39,061 bases of DNA from positions 1 through 39,061 of the forward strand of contig WREQ01000011.1 of NCBI GenBank assembly GCA_009779255.1, in the 5' to 3' direction. A program made the translations under genes and the position numbers. This document shows, piece after piece, positions 14,857 to 29,441 of the stretch; the stretch's first letter is position 1; each line of letters opens with the position of its first letter. Origin of the DNA: Dehalococcoidia bacterium. GTDB taxonomy: Bacteria; Chloroflexota; Dehalococcoidia; Dehalococcoidales; UBA1222. Below the pieces are notes generated by a model. That model was not told where the DNA came from. It was given only the letters and a program-made list of their open reading frames with translations, and did no database searches.

Positions 14857-16065
14857 ATGAGCGGACTAAACAGTTCCAGTAAACGTTTTAACTGGAAGCC
14901 TTGGGCAGCAGCCCTGGCCATAGCAGGCGTTTTTGCTGTCTTTTTTTGGCTCAACGCCTCCCTGCCGCGTCTGGCCATTTTCTGGATTTTTGGCCTAGCC
15001 TTAGGCTTTATCTTGCAGCGTTCTCGTTTCTGTTTTGTTTCAGCAATCAGTAACAGCTTTCTCTTCCGCGATACGCGCCTACTGGAAGGCATCTTGGGGG
15101 GGCTTTTTATCGCCACTATCGGTTTTGCCTTTATCATGTATCAAATATCCCCGCATCCCACCGATAACAACATCCCTTTCGCGGCCATTGTCTCTCCATT
15201 TGGCTGGCATCTTGCTTTGGGCGGATTACTCTTTGGTTGCGGTATGATGCTTGGCGGAGGTTGCATCGTTGGCAATCTTCACCGCATTGGCGAGGGTTCT
15301 CTTTCTGCCGTGGTGGCCTTTCTGGGCATTCTCCTAGGTATGGGCGCCCTCCAGTTTACCTGGCCGTGGTGGTGGCAAAACTATATTGGCACTCTTTCTC
15401 CCGTATGGCTGCCGGCTAAAATCGGTTGGTGGGGGGCAATCATACTCACCCTCCTTGTTATAACCGTCTTGTTTGTCATTGTGCGGCGGGTAAAAGCAAA
15501 AATGCCAGTCGTAGTTAGCCATCATGCTCAAAACACAAGGTTAAGCACTAAGTTTATCAATATCTCAAGAGCGATCTTTTGCAAAGCCTGGCCGCTTGCC
15601 CTTGGCGGTATCGTACTCGGTATTGTGAACGTACTCTTGTTCCGAGTTGCAGACCGTCCCTTGACAGTTACCGGCGAAACCATGTCCTGGGCACAAGGTC
15701 TTTTCACCTTAGTACAGCTGCCGCCACCGGCTTTCGATTCTGTTCCTGGCACCTGAGTTGCCGGTTCTACGCCGGGTCAGTTGACCTGGGGGCTTTTTCT
15801 TAATATCGGCATCATTGTCGGCTCGTTCGTCGCCGCCACTATCTCCGGCGACTTCCGATTGCGCCGCCCGCGCCAAGCGGCTGTTTACCTGCGCGTACTC
15901 GGTGGAGGACTATTAATGGGCTACGGGGCAGGGTTAGCTTCAGCCTGTACCATGGGCGGCTTTTTTTCCGCCGTGCCATCACTTGGCCTAAACGGGTTTG
16001 CATTTGGAGCCGCGGTACTCGCCGGAGCTTTCATAGGTCTGCAAATAATCAAACGAGCAAGCTAA
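14857..16065 (+). CDS. YeeE/YedE-family sulfur/selenium transporter with in-frame TGA (candidate Sec300)
   Basis: One continuous frame of 402 codons, interrupted by a single TGA at 15754-15756 (codon 300). Both sides belong to the same family. The first half has LQRSRFCF (Cys59) and GCGMMLGGGC (Cys128, Cys136). The second half repeats the architecture with GGGLLMGYGAGLASACTMGG (Cys364). The family is a multi-pass inner-membrane importer; TsuA-type members import thiosulfate, and YedE/FdhT-type members are linked to selenium and formate dehydrogenase. About nine or ten membrane segments are visible. The TGA falls in a loop (VPGT-U-VAGST), and a 7-bp hairpin with an AGTT loop starts 15 nt after it, as a bacterial SECIS would. 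I chose the ATG at 14857 for family fit; a TTG at 14797 is possible. Alternative: a nonsense mutation, making this a recent pseudogene. Confidence 0.7.
15757..15789 (+). promoter_or_regulatory. SECIS-like hairpin after the yedE TGA
   Basis: CCGGGTC (15772-15778) pairs with GACCTGG (15783-15789): seven pairs, one of them G-U. The apical loop is A-G-T-T. The loop begins 22 nt after the TGA, and G is its second base followed by T. These features agree with the general bacterial SECIS description: short apical loop, G in its first two positions, loop roughly 16-37 nt from the UGA. Confidence 0.5.
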
Positions 16066-16101: not shown

Positions 16102-16557
16102 ATGAACCGTATATTGGCTATTATCACTGCTACAATTATCCTGTTCGCCGGCTGCAACGGGACACAGGACAATCCAGCAGTTACATCCACTGGGGGACTC
16201 GGTACGGAAATTGTTACAGGTAACGGCTCTTACTGGAGTGTAACACCTGTTCAGCTTGCCTCTGTAAGCAGAGCGAACTACTTTTTAGTCTGCGTAGACG
16301 ATCCGATATCCACGATTATTGGCAACACTACCACCGACCTCTTCGTTAAGGTTGAAGAGATTGATCAAAACCTGGATAAGTTCCCGGCAGATAAGAACCG
16401 CCGGATTGTCGTCTATTGTATCGTTGGCAACAAAAGCAGGCCTGCATCCGAGGCGCTTGTTGCCGCTGGTTACACTTTGGTCACACATTTAGAAGGCGGC
16501 ACGGCGCGCTGGCAACAACAAGGTTATCCTGTGGCCAACTACACCGGCACCCCATAA
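16102..16557 (+). CDS. Rhodanese-domain lipoprotein
   Basis: A 151-residue exported protein. Residues 1-18 form a lipoprotein signal with lipobox LFAGC (Cys18), so the mature protein is probably anchored outside the cytoplasmic membrane. Residues about 45-145 form a rhodanese-like domain with active-site loop YCIVGNKSR and the following GG.ARWQQQGYPV segment typical of the fold. Rhodaneses carry sulfane sulfur (or selenium) as a persulfide on the catalytic cysteine. A strong AAGGAGG lies nine bases before the ATG. It starts 36 bases after the YedE-family gene and probably shares its transcript. That suggests it relays or releases sulfur or selenium for the transporter. The substrate is inferred, not shown. 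Confidence 0.88.
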   Translation: MNRILAIITATIILFAGCNGTQDNPAVTSTGGLGTEIVTGNGSYWSVTPVQLASVSRANYFLVCVDDPISTIIGNTTTDLFVKVEEIDQNLDKFPADKNRRIVVYCIVGNKSRPASEALVAAGYTLVTHLEGGTARWQQQGYPVANYTGTP

Positions 16558-23506: not shown

Positions 23507-23651
23507 AGCGGTGACTCCATCATAATCGGGGATATGGTAGCACAAATGTAATTCAGAGCGCGGCTGTCCTCCCGTGAATTCGTTGAGAAAGATGGGTAAC
23601 ACCTTAAAATCAGGTGTCATTCGAGGCTTGACCCGCAATCTAAAACAGCCG

Positions 23652-24130
23652 TAAATCCGTGCTGGAGGAACGAGCTTGCGAGTAACGAAGCATCCGGTGG
23701 GGCGGTGGATGATTGCTCCCCGCCACCAGATCCTTCGGTCGCTGCGCTCCCTCCAGGATGGACTTGATCATAAATCCATGCTGGAGGAACGAGCCTGCGA
23801 GTGACGAAGCATTTGGAGGGGGCGGGGAGTAGTAACTGGCACCACACTGCCAGATCCTTCGGTCGCTGCACTCTCTCCAGGATGGACTTGGTCGTAAATC
23901 CGTGCTGGAGGAACGAGCCTGCGAGTGACGAAGCATCCGGAGGAGGCGGTGGATAGTTGCTCCACACCACCAGATCCTTCGGTCGCTGTGCTCCCTCCAG
24001 GATGGACTTGCACATAAATCCATGCTGGAGGAACGAGCTTGCGAGTGACGAAGCATCCGGAGGAGGCGGTGGATAGTTGCTCCACACCACCAGATCCTTC
24101 GGTCGCTACGCTCCCTCCAGGATGGACTTG
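23652..24130. repeat. Tandem array of four palindromic units of about 120 bp
   Basis: Units begin at 23652, 23771, 23895 and 24015 (spacings 119, 124, 120). Each has a left arm (ctggaggaacgagc to gacgaagcatcc), a variable G/C-rich middle and a right arm (gatccttcggtcgct to cctccaggatgg). The right arm read in reverse resembles the left arm, so each unit can fold into a long hairpin, as in REP/BIME elements. The same unit recurs twice in opposite orientation at 38663-38915. Long reverse ORFs here arise because the period is near a multiple of three. Confidence 0.9.
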
Positions 24131-24400
24131 TGCGAGACTCATCACTCCAAACTCGTAACTGACCACTGAAAACTGACCACTTGTGACTCAAAACTTCACA
24201 CAATGTCACTCGCGGCTTGCCTCGCAATCCAGAATGATGCCCCACCAACTACCTCCCCGCTGGATTCCGGCTCGGAGGCCGGAATGATAACGAAAAAGAT
24301 CGGTATGACAGGAGGGGAGAATGGGCGTGCAAAACACCAAAAGCTAATCGCGGCCAGGCTCCATCCAACTATCAATAATCACTTGAACGAGTACATCCCG
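24131..24400. other. Non-coding flank of the repeat array
   Basis: Begins with short repeats of the type actgaccact-gaaaactgacc (24159-24181), also seen beside the other array near 38630-38660. A perfect 8-bp hairpin attccggc/gccggaat lies at 24264-24285. No gene is seen. Confidence 0.6.
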
Positions 24401-26768: not shown

Positions 26769-29441
26769 ATGGCTGATATTGTCAAGATTGTCATTGATGG
26801 GCGTGAGATAGAGGCTTGCGCCGGCGCTACCGTGCTGGAAGCTGCGTTATCCGCCGGTATCTATATTCCTAACCTGTGTCATCATCCAGACCTTGAGCCT
26901 TATGGCGGCTGTCGTTTATGCATTGTGGAAATCGCCGGTATGCGCGGTCTGCCCACGGCCTGCACTACTCGCGTCACTGATGGCATGACGGTCAAGACAT
27001 ATGGCGGCGAACTTGATAGAGTGCGCCGTGATACCCTTCAGCTCATTATGGCCAATCACCCGTCGGACTGCCTCTCCTGCGCCAAAAATCAGCGCTGCGA
27101 ATTGCAAAAAGTGACGGCCTATCTGGGTGTCACCGAACGCACTATGGCGCGCACCATGCCGGAGCAGGAAGTCGACGACTCCAATCCCTTCTTCACGCTG
27201 GACCGCAACTACTGCATATTGTGCGGGCGTTGTACGCGCACTTGTGCCGAGATTGTCGGTGTGGGGGCTATTGAGCTTATGGGGCGCGGAGATCAAACCC
27301 GCGTCGGCGTTTTTGGTGATAAAACTCTGATGGAATCCGACTGCCGCTCCTGCGGTGAGTGCATGGCGCGTTGCCCTGTGGGAGCGCTGCGTCCCAAAGT
27401 GAATGTCGTTCCGGCCTATGAGGTGCTGACGACCTGCCCTTACTGCGCCGTGGGCTGTTCGATATATCTGGGTATGCGCGATGGCAGGCTGGTTTCGGCT
27501 CGCGGCAATAAGGACGGTGGCGCCAACCGGGGTATGCTGTGTGTCAAGGGGCGCTTTGGCGCCACTGAATTTGTACAGCATCCTGATCGACTGACCACGC
27601 CGCTGATTCGTGGCGATAACGGACAGCAGCCGGCGGATTGGGATTCTGTTCTTGATCTTGTCGCCGCCAGATTCAAGTCCTACGCTCCGGATGAAGTGGC
27701 AGTGGTGCCTTCATCACGCACTACAAATGAAGATGTATATGTGGCGCAGAAGTTGGCGCGGGCGGCGCTTAGGACGAACAATATCGACAACTGTGCCCGT
27801 CTGTGACATGCTCCCACGGTGGCCGGTCTGGCCACCCAGTTCGGCTCGGGAGCCATGACCAACTCCATCGGGGATATAGCGCAGTCGGCCTGCTTGCTCA
27901 ATATCGGCGCCAACACGGCGGACGCGCATCCGGTGATTGCTTACCAGATGGAACAGGCGGTGCGCCGCGGAGCCAAACTTATCGTTATCAATCCGCGTAG
28001 GGTGGGGCTGGTGCGTCACGCAGATCTGTGGCTCAGGCCGCGCGCTGGCACCAATGTGTCTTTGTTGATGGGGCTGTGCCGCGCAATCCTGGATAACGGC
28101 TGGCAGGATGACGCTTTTATCGCCGAACGCTGCGAAAACTTTGATGCCATGAAGCAATCGCTTGAGCAACACGACCTTGACTCGGTGGCGAAGATTACCG
28201 GCCTGAAAGTCTCCGAGATTACCGAGGCGGCGCGGATGTACGCCCTGAACGCGCCGGCGGCCATTTCATACGCCATGGGCATCTGCGAATGGAGCCACGG
28301 CACCGATGCCGTGATGGCGGTGGGCAATCTGGCGATGATTACCGGCAATATCGGCAAGCCGGGTGCCGGCGTCAATCCGCTCAGAGGGCAGAACAATGTG
28401 CAGGGCGCCTGCGATATGGGGGCGCTTCCCGGCATATACGTCGGCTATCAATCTGTGGCCGATACTGCCGCACATGAAAAGTTCGCCAAGGCATGGGGCA
28501 ATACCTCCGGATTTACTCCCGGTCTGACGCTGACCCAGATGTTCGATGCCGCAGCCGAGGGCAAAATCAAGGCAATGTATATTATCGGCGAAAACCCCAT
28601 GCTGTCAGACCCGAACAGCACGCATATTGAAAAAGCACTCAGGAAGCTGGATTTTCTGGTGGTGCAGGATATTTTCCGCAACGAGACTACAGCTATGGCG
28701 CATGTTGTCCTTCCGGGCGCCAGTTTTGCCGAAAAGGATGGCACCTTTACCAACACCGAGCGCCGCTTCCAGCGCGTCAGAAAGGTCATTGAGCCGCTTT
28801 CCGGCTGTCGTCCCGACTGGCTGATAACCGCGCAAATCGCTCAGAGGATGGGGGCCGCCGGCTTCGATTATGCCTCGCCGCAGGACATCATGCGGGAAAT
28901 CAACGCACTTGCCCCCGGCTTCGCCGGCATCACTTATGAGCGGCTGGAAACTTGCGGCGGGCTGCAATGGCCATGTCCTTCTGTCGAACACCCTGGCACG
29001 CCGGTGCTGCATACGCACTTGTTCGCCCGCGGGCGCGGCAGGTTCATGCCGTTGGAGTACAGGCCTCCGTTCGAAGTGCCGGATAAAGACTATCCGTTTC
29101 TTCTTGACACCGGGCGCGCCCTGTTCCAGTACCATACTGGCACTCAAACGCGCCGCGTGGCAGGGTTGAATAAGTTCATGAGCGAAGAAAAATTGCAAAT
29201 CAATCCGAAGGACGCCGCAAAACTGGGCATTCACGAAGGAGATATGCTGGCCATCTCATCGCGGCGCGGCAGTGTCAGGGCGCGTGCGGCACTTACTGAT
29301 GTCACGCCTGTCGGAACGGTTTACATGACGTTCCATTTCCGCGAAACGCCCACCAACCTGCTTACCAGCCCCGGGCGCGACCCTGTGACGCATACTCCTG
29401 AATTCAAGGCCTGCGCCGTGCGGGTGGAAAAAGTTCTCTGA
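26769..29441 (+). CDS. fdhA: Selenocysteine formate dehydrogenase, catalytic subunit
   Basis: One frame of 890 residues with an in-frame TGA at 27804-27806, read as Sec346. The context NCARL-U-HAPTVAGL matches the Sec site of formate dehydrogenases (E. coli FdhF has a CARV-U-HGPSVAGL-type sequence). N-terminal domains: [2Fe-2S] (Cys37, 48, 51, 65), a His-Cys3 site (HPSDCLSCAKNQRC), two [4Fe-4S] clusters (CILCGRCTRTC and CRSCGECMARC), then the TCPYCAVGC cluster of the molybdopterin domain. The rest is a complete bis-MGD Mo/W domain plus C-terminal dinucleotide-binding domain. With the NuoE- and NuoF-like subunits it couples formate/CO2 to NAD(H), probably in the cytoplasm; no signal peptide is visible. 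A SECIS hairpin follows the TGA. AAAGGA precedes the ATG. Confidence 0.96.
27807..27836 (+). promoter_or_regulatory. SECIS element of fdhA
   Basis: GGTGGCC (27818-27824) and GGCCACC (27830-27836) form a perfect 7-bp stem with loop GGTCT, starting 18 nt after the TGA. The GGUCU loop resembles the core of the E. coli fdhF SECIS loop, whose G and U contact SelB. Confidence 0.85.

Follow-up and report, generated by a model that had tools for sequence, protein, structure and literature searches.

A predicted selenocysteine in a YeeE/YedE-type importer of a Dehalococcoidia bacterium and its relatives

Does a TGA in the middle of a yedE-type transporter gene end translation, or does it encode selenocysteine (Sec)? 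Most predicted selenoproteins are redox enzymes, and few are transporters. Among the experimentally verified entries of a 2026 selenoprotein list there is no transporter, and no specific high-affinity selenium uptake system has been identified in prokaryotes (PMC13188914), a question on which a yedE selenoprotein would bear. A sequence-only reading had proposed that the YedE-family protein may itself contain Sec. Here the proposal is examined in the window (the whole stretch of 39,061 nucleotides that was analysed), in its source assembly (G000; 1.14 Mb, 60 contigs, about 77% complete) and in related genomes.

Results

One in-frame UGA within a transporter gene

14857..16065, forward strand: yedE-type gene with an ATG start and 402 codons plus TAA, encoding a membrane protein of the Sulf_transp family (PF04143) with predicted Sec at codon 300
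15754..15756, forward strand: UGA, the predicted Sec300 codon, found at one aligned site in 13 genomes, with Cys at or beside the site in homologues

The frame from the ATG at 14857 to the TAA ending at 16065 contains only one in-frame TGA, at codon 300, and the PF04143 match of the product (187 bits; 186 bits over residues 55-393) runs across it, which bears out the description of a single TGA within a 402-codon YeeE/YedE gene. Between G000 and its relative G004, dN/dS is 0.05 after the TGA and 0.10 before it, indicating strong purifying selection on the later half. Many other window genes of normal length, such as uvrB and genes of the fdh operon, end in TGA, so that TGA remains a normal stop here. 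A genome-wide reassignment of UGA to an amino acid would explain the open frame and nothing beyond it; given these stops, and since internal TGA codons in full-length genes were seen in yedE and in two known Sec genes, fdhA and selD, we rejected such a code change, to which we assign next to no probability.

Relatives carry UGA or cysteine at the same site

A search of one Chloroflexota order (156 genomes) at E 1e-20 or better recovered a yedE homologue in 18 genomes, and in 13 of these 18 a TGA stands at the identical aligned site, with no other stop in the matched region.

Sec-form genomes: G000, G001, G003, G004, G005, G007, G008, G024, G028, G053, G055, G057, G058

These genomes, of uncultured Dehalococcoidales and relatives, come from four families of the order, with identities down to 44-47%. 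Among the matches listed from the wider class (393 genomes), no homologue outside the order carried the TGA. A pattern-based contig scan with the single yedE protein gave no match; an alignment-based scan succeeded, and the named genomes closest to G000 were those of uncultured Dehalococcoidales and Dehalococcoidia. A chance origin of the TGA is excluded because the site is conserved in 13 genomes and the later half of the gene is under purifying selection. Sequencing or assembly error might be suspected in a window from an incomplete, fragmented assembly, but the codon recurs in 13 separate, independently assembled genomes, which makes error vanishingly improbable and led us to rule it out. 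The sequence-only reading had also counted against Sec the G that follows the TGA; the base was correctly identified, but it is the same in 12 of the 13 Sec-form genomes and therefore carries little weight.

The Sec-site motif is PG[T/S]U followed by V, or GPUM in G028. Two homologues with 40-41% identity (G002 and G006) have Cys aligned exactly to Sec300 in the motif PGAC, and the corresponding loop of G042, a congener of Sec-form G028, contains Cys at SESC. Among roughly 50 other homologues, drawn from Chloroflexota and Gemmatimonadota, most or almost all have Cys in a GC motif of this loop, within one or two residues of the site; a few distant ones, for example of the Thermoflexus type (L066, L075, L087), are without the loop GC motif. 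No unrelated sense codon was found at codon 300 in close relatives, which have TGA or Cys throughout. The earlier reading had pointed to a recurrent TGA in related genomes and to Cys at codon 300 in close homologues as telling observations, and both were made.

In a maximum-likelihood tree for which the Sec positions were masked, Sec and Cys must have been exchanged at least three times. The Cys forms of G002 and G006 lie inside the Sec clade (95/93), so that their Cys most likely arose by reversion from Sec, as judged from this topology, and Sec-form G028 and Cys-form G042 are sisters (98/98). Because G002 and G006 retain the Sec machinery, Cys can evidently serve even where Sec is available, and Sec is not indispensable. 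An alternative interpretation is that Sec works chiefly as a selenium sensor that sets how much importer is made, with the residue itself chemically dispensable: a SECIS element inside the gene would tie the full-length protein to selenium, and Cys can replace Sec. We consider this improbable because most Sec-less homologues have Cys rather than some other residue, which argues that a chalcogen at this site matters in itself.

A constrained hairpin follows the UGA

15772..15789, forward strand: putative bacterial SECIS apical hairpin, CCGGGTC-AGTT-GACCTGG

The arms of the hairpin (CCGGGTC at 15772-15778 and GACCTGG at 15783-15789) enclose an AGTT loop (15779-15782) that begins 22 nt from the UGA and has G as its second base, the SECIS-like layout that had been described from the sequence. 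The 7-bp stem is kept in 12 of the 13 Sec-form genomes with 98.8% of cells paired; one pair alternates between GU and AU, and G024 has one mismatch (one unpaired cell). Among the 12 stem-keeping genomes the loop differs only in G053, where it is AATT, with no loop G. The stem is not kept in the Cys forms G002, G006 and G042.

No support was found for two-sided covariation in the stem, a test that is uninformative because the stem is almost invariant, and synonymous constraint was used instead. Since the hairpin overlaps the conserved peptide PGQLTWG, codon choice was tested for constraint beyond that on amino acids. Six invariant positions in the hairpin region are degenerate; their codon diversity was 0.28 of expectation, compared with 0.84 for 72 other invariant positions, and no other segment of equal size scored as low (permutation P about 1e-5; rank test P 1e-4). 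Of the 80 invariant positions, only three use a single codon, and two of these lie in the hairpin. Folding energies compared with codon-shuffled controls (z from -0.5 to -4.1) were suggestive but uneven, and we do not take them as proof. The exception to the conserved stem is G028, whose yedE (L011 / L146) has a short peptide insertion after the UGA and, at the corresponding place, an unrelated hairpin that is rich in GC and has GTT as its loop. This difference suggests either independent recruitment, that is, a separate origin of Sec at the same site, or strong remodelling of the hairpin.

The hairpin also bears on another reading of the UGA, namely that it is a true stop and that yedE is either a pseudogene or a split gene for two proteins. 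Other window genes do end at UGA in the ordinary way, but the same in-frame UGA in 13 genomes whose matched regions are otherwise free of stops, a downstream part more conserved than the upstream part, stop-free homologues with Cys at the site and a hairpin with constrained codons after the UGA together make this reading very improbable, and a split gene was rejected.

The genome encodes Sec machinery and further predicted selenoproteins

26769..29441, forward strand: fdhA, encoding the alpha subunit of a Sec-containing formate dehydrogenase (TIGR01591, 815 bits; cut-off 666)
G000 contig 21, 12346-14229: selB, full-length (349 bits, cut-off 242)
G000 contig 21, 14233-15627: selA, full-length, in tandem with selB and selD
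G000 contig 21, L134:15624 to about 16700, minus strand: selD, with an in-frame UGA (SGUGAK)

The Sec-containing formate dehydrogenase that had been noted in the window proved to be real: fdhA carries a TGA in frame (27804-27806, with the context CARL-U-HAP) and so gives separate evidence that UGA means Sec in this genome. With the UGA in selD, at least three selenoproteins are predicted in G000 (FdhA, SelD and YedE). As a check on whether the genome has sel genes the result was incomplete; selA, selB and selD are encoded, but no tRNA-Sec turned up in the assembly (77% complete), whether with Rfam models, with ARAGORN on contig 21 or in a search with the G004 gene. Since tRNA-Sec is present in G004, G001 and many other relatives, its absence here is most simply put down to the quarter of the genome that the assembly lacks.

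SelB scores above its cut-off in all 13 Sec-form genomes compared with 92 of 156 across the order. In Cys-form G042 there is no SelB (an elongation-factor score only), no SelD (71 bits, cut-off 125) and no tRNA-Sec (best match tRNA-Ser), so that loss of the machinery accompanies Cys at the site. In G053, yedE (with UGA), a rhodanese gene, selD and tRNA-Sec follow one another within about 3.1 kb (L145:595-3693), the only Sec-form neighbourhood with sel genes among those examined. The TGA or Cys in close relatives, the hairpin and the presence of SelA, SelB and SelD all support the proposal that this YedE-family protein is a selenoprotein, and on this comparative evidence the yedE product almost certainly has Sec at residue 300.

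Sec300 is additional to a known cysteine relay

15031..15033, forward strand: Cys59 codon, equivalent to TsuA Cys22 at the cytoplasmic end of the relay (6leo alignment)
15262..15264, forward strand: Cys136 codon, equivalent to TsuA Cys91 (6leo alignment; 6lep is the C91A mutant)
15946..15948, forward strand: Cys364 codon, equivalent to TsuA Cys293 at the outer end of the relay (6leo alignment)

In TsuA/YeeE the relay cysteines are C293 first, then C91 and, third, C22, which adjoins the cytoplasmic partner YeeD (PMC11073785). Their equivalents C59, C136 and C364 are kept in nearly all full-length homologues, and Sec300 comes in addition to these three. In TsuA the relay cysteines line the pore, and no residue in its aligned part corresponds to Sec300. 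An AlphaFold model of the yedE product (pLDDT 87, pTM 0.87) had its best Foldseek matches in the PDB with 6leo (E 6e-12, TM 0.74 by target), 8j4c, 8k1r and 6lep. In this predicted structure Sec300 lies ahead of a helix (311-330) in a loop (286-310) for which the model is less reliable (block pLDDT 60-69). The segment after the helix aligns with TsuA around E261, a residue described as lying at the cytoplasmic surface (PMC11073785), and has four arginines; loop 286-310 has no Lys or Arg. The E261 alignment and this distribution of arginine and lysine would place Sec300 on the outward side, and the loop very probably faces outward, just before a transmembrane helix that starts on the outer side.

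A rhodanese gene adjoins yedE

16102..16557, forward strand: rhodanese-domain protein of 151 aa (PF00581, 33 bits, cut-off 22) with a lipoprotein-type signal; likely partner

This gene lies 36 nt downstream of yedE on the same strand, and its product has the active-site Cys in VYCIVGNKS. A rhodanese gene lies downstream of yedE in 11 of the 13 Sec-form genomes and in both PGAC-form genomes (G002 and G006); none was seen in the sequence at hand for the loci of Sec-form G007 and G028. Rhodanese genes also often lie directly upstream or downstream of Cys-form homologues elsewhere in Chloroflexota, and DsrE or SufB-type genes lie upstream of yedE in some Sec-form genomes.

Three side observations concern these loci and their surroundings. 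The Cys-form yedE of G042 is followed by a gene for a TusA-DsrE fusion (L036:2382-3032) that is YedF-like but below cut-off (30 of 110 bits). G000 encodes more PF04143-type proteins on contig 13 (L002 and L004), including an apparently split pair of 184 and 208 aa, in which CP-x-R motifs replace the TsuA-type core cysteines. Open reading frames at 23640-24248 of the window and at L134:1255-1887 have repeated peptides (such as SWREHSDRRIWWCGATIHRLLRMLRHSQARSSS) and share GLRGKPRVTL...KWSVFS across contigs; from this pattern they look like an interspersed DNA repeat, not genes.

Discussion

Proposed route of chalcogen entry

Taken as a whole, these results are best explained, in our confident view, by a full-length YeeE/YedE importer with Sec300, made by SelB- and SECIS-dependent insertion, in which Sec provides an extra chalcogen site beside the three relay cysteines. 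SelB would insert Sec at the UGA with the SECIS hairpin behind it, giving the 402-residue importer. At the outer face, the rhodanese lipoprotein would carry sulfane sulfur (or its selenium analogue) on its own Cys and pass this cargo to Sec300, in this model the entry point of the relay, whose selenolate is more reactive; the chalcogen could then move from Sec300 to Cys364, Cys136 and Cys59 and on to a cytoplasmic acceptor or carrier. A selenolate is both a better nucleophile and a better leaving group than a thiolate, and this reactivity fits an acceptor role for Sec300; whether Sec300 does act as chalcogen acceptor is, in our estimate, evenly balanced. More tentatively, and with somewhat less assurance, we propose a two-component import system in which the rhodanese lipoprotein delivers sulfane sulfur or selenium to the exposed Sec of a channel-like transporter, with selenium chemistry driving chalcogen entry and, if selenium is the cargo, a self-reinforcing supply loop.

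A supply loop of this kind had been suggested from the sequence. In one alternative to our model, a dedicated selenium importer would be completed only when selenium is present and would then import more of it for FdhA and SelD. Such an importer would suit a predicted selenoprotein in a genome with Sec-containing FdhA and SelD, and is consistent with the G053 yedE that adjoins selD and tRNA-Sec and with the tie of YedE (TIGR04112) to selenium by genome context (PMC5322559). However, the yedE product falls well short of the cut-offs for the families tied to selenium (NF033796, 137 of 350 bits; TIGR04112, 50 of 200), the Cys form occurs in two genomes without detected SelD (G042 and the closed Tepidiforma flava genome), many homologues adjoin rhodaneses, which points to sulfur, and sel genes were present in one alone of the Sec-form neighbourhoods examined. 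The supply loop is thus possible but unproven, and we consider a dedicated selenium importer rather unlikely. Sulfur is favoured as the ancestral cargo because the Cys-form subfamily persists in genomes without detected SelD and has ties to rhodaneses; selenium may also be carried, particularly given G053.

A Sec residue in the probable outer loop of a structurally known cysteine relay, beside a conserved rhodanese, makes the loading of YeeE/YedE with sulfur or selenium testable, and the natural pairs of Sec and Cys forms among close relatives are ready comparisons. If true, the transporter would be one of very few that depend on selenium and would add a new step in the entry of sulfur or selenium into cells.

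Comparison with known systems

We found no published report of the PG[T/S]U Sec site in the open-access literature, which lacks most subscription papers. The earlier reading was not aware of a described YedE selenoprotein; a predicted YeeE/YedE selenoprotein (PF04143, WP_012471001.1) is already listed in a 2026 review (PMC13188914) and its 2022 forerunner (PMC9312934), although the site here is apparently another one. The listed protein, with the motif GUxSG (PMC13188914), shares with the yedE product its Pfam family and a predicted Sec, whereas here T or S precedes U and no SG follows two residues after it. GUxSG resembles the GCxxG core motif, which corresponds to Cys136 here, and so, in a comparison by listed motif only, it apparently marks a different site. 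Different Sec positions are treated in the review as distinct subfamilies (PMC13188914), and by that count the PG[T/S]U site would be a new one.

YedE/FdhT (NF033796) and seleno_YedE (TIGR04112) are related to the yedE product in sequence (137 and 50.5 bits, below the cut-offs of 350 and 200) and are defined by their linkage to selenium, not by Sec content. An identity with TsoY was rejected, with no NF047643 match in six genomes or in ten aligned proteins. In the sections of the Hyphomicrobium SoxT report considered here (PMC11582611), these importers are YeeE-like and have three conserved cysteines that are essential, and sulfur is proposed to reach them from a partner that handles it in the periplasm; DsbA-like or SoxS proteins are suggested for this donor role, whereas yedE adjoins a gene for a rhodanese lipoprotein, and those sections note no Sec, unlike in yedE here.

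The closest structural comparison is the thiosulfate transporter TsuA/YeeE of Spirochaeta thermophila (PDB 6LEO, 8K1R; PMC11073785), which shares its fold and three relay cysteines with the yedE product at 24% identity, although scores to the TsuA models are below cut-off (NF052577, 105 of 400 bits; NF041049, 82 of 645). Within the aligned part Sec300 is present only in the yedE product, and whereas the partner encoded next to TsuA is the cytoplasmic YeeD/TusA, the neighbour of yedE is a rhodanese lipoprotein.
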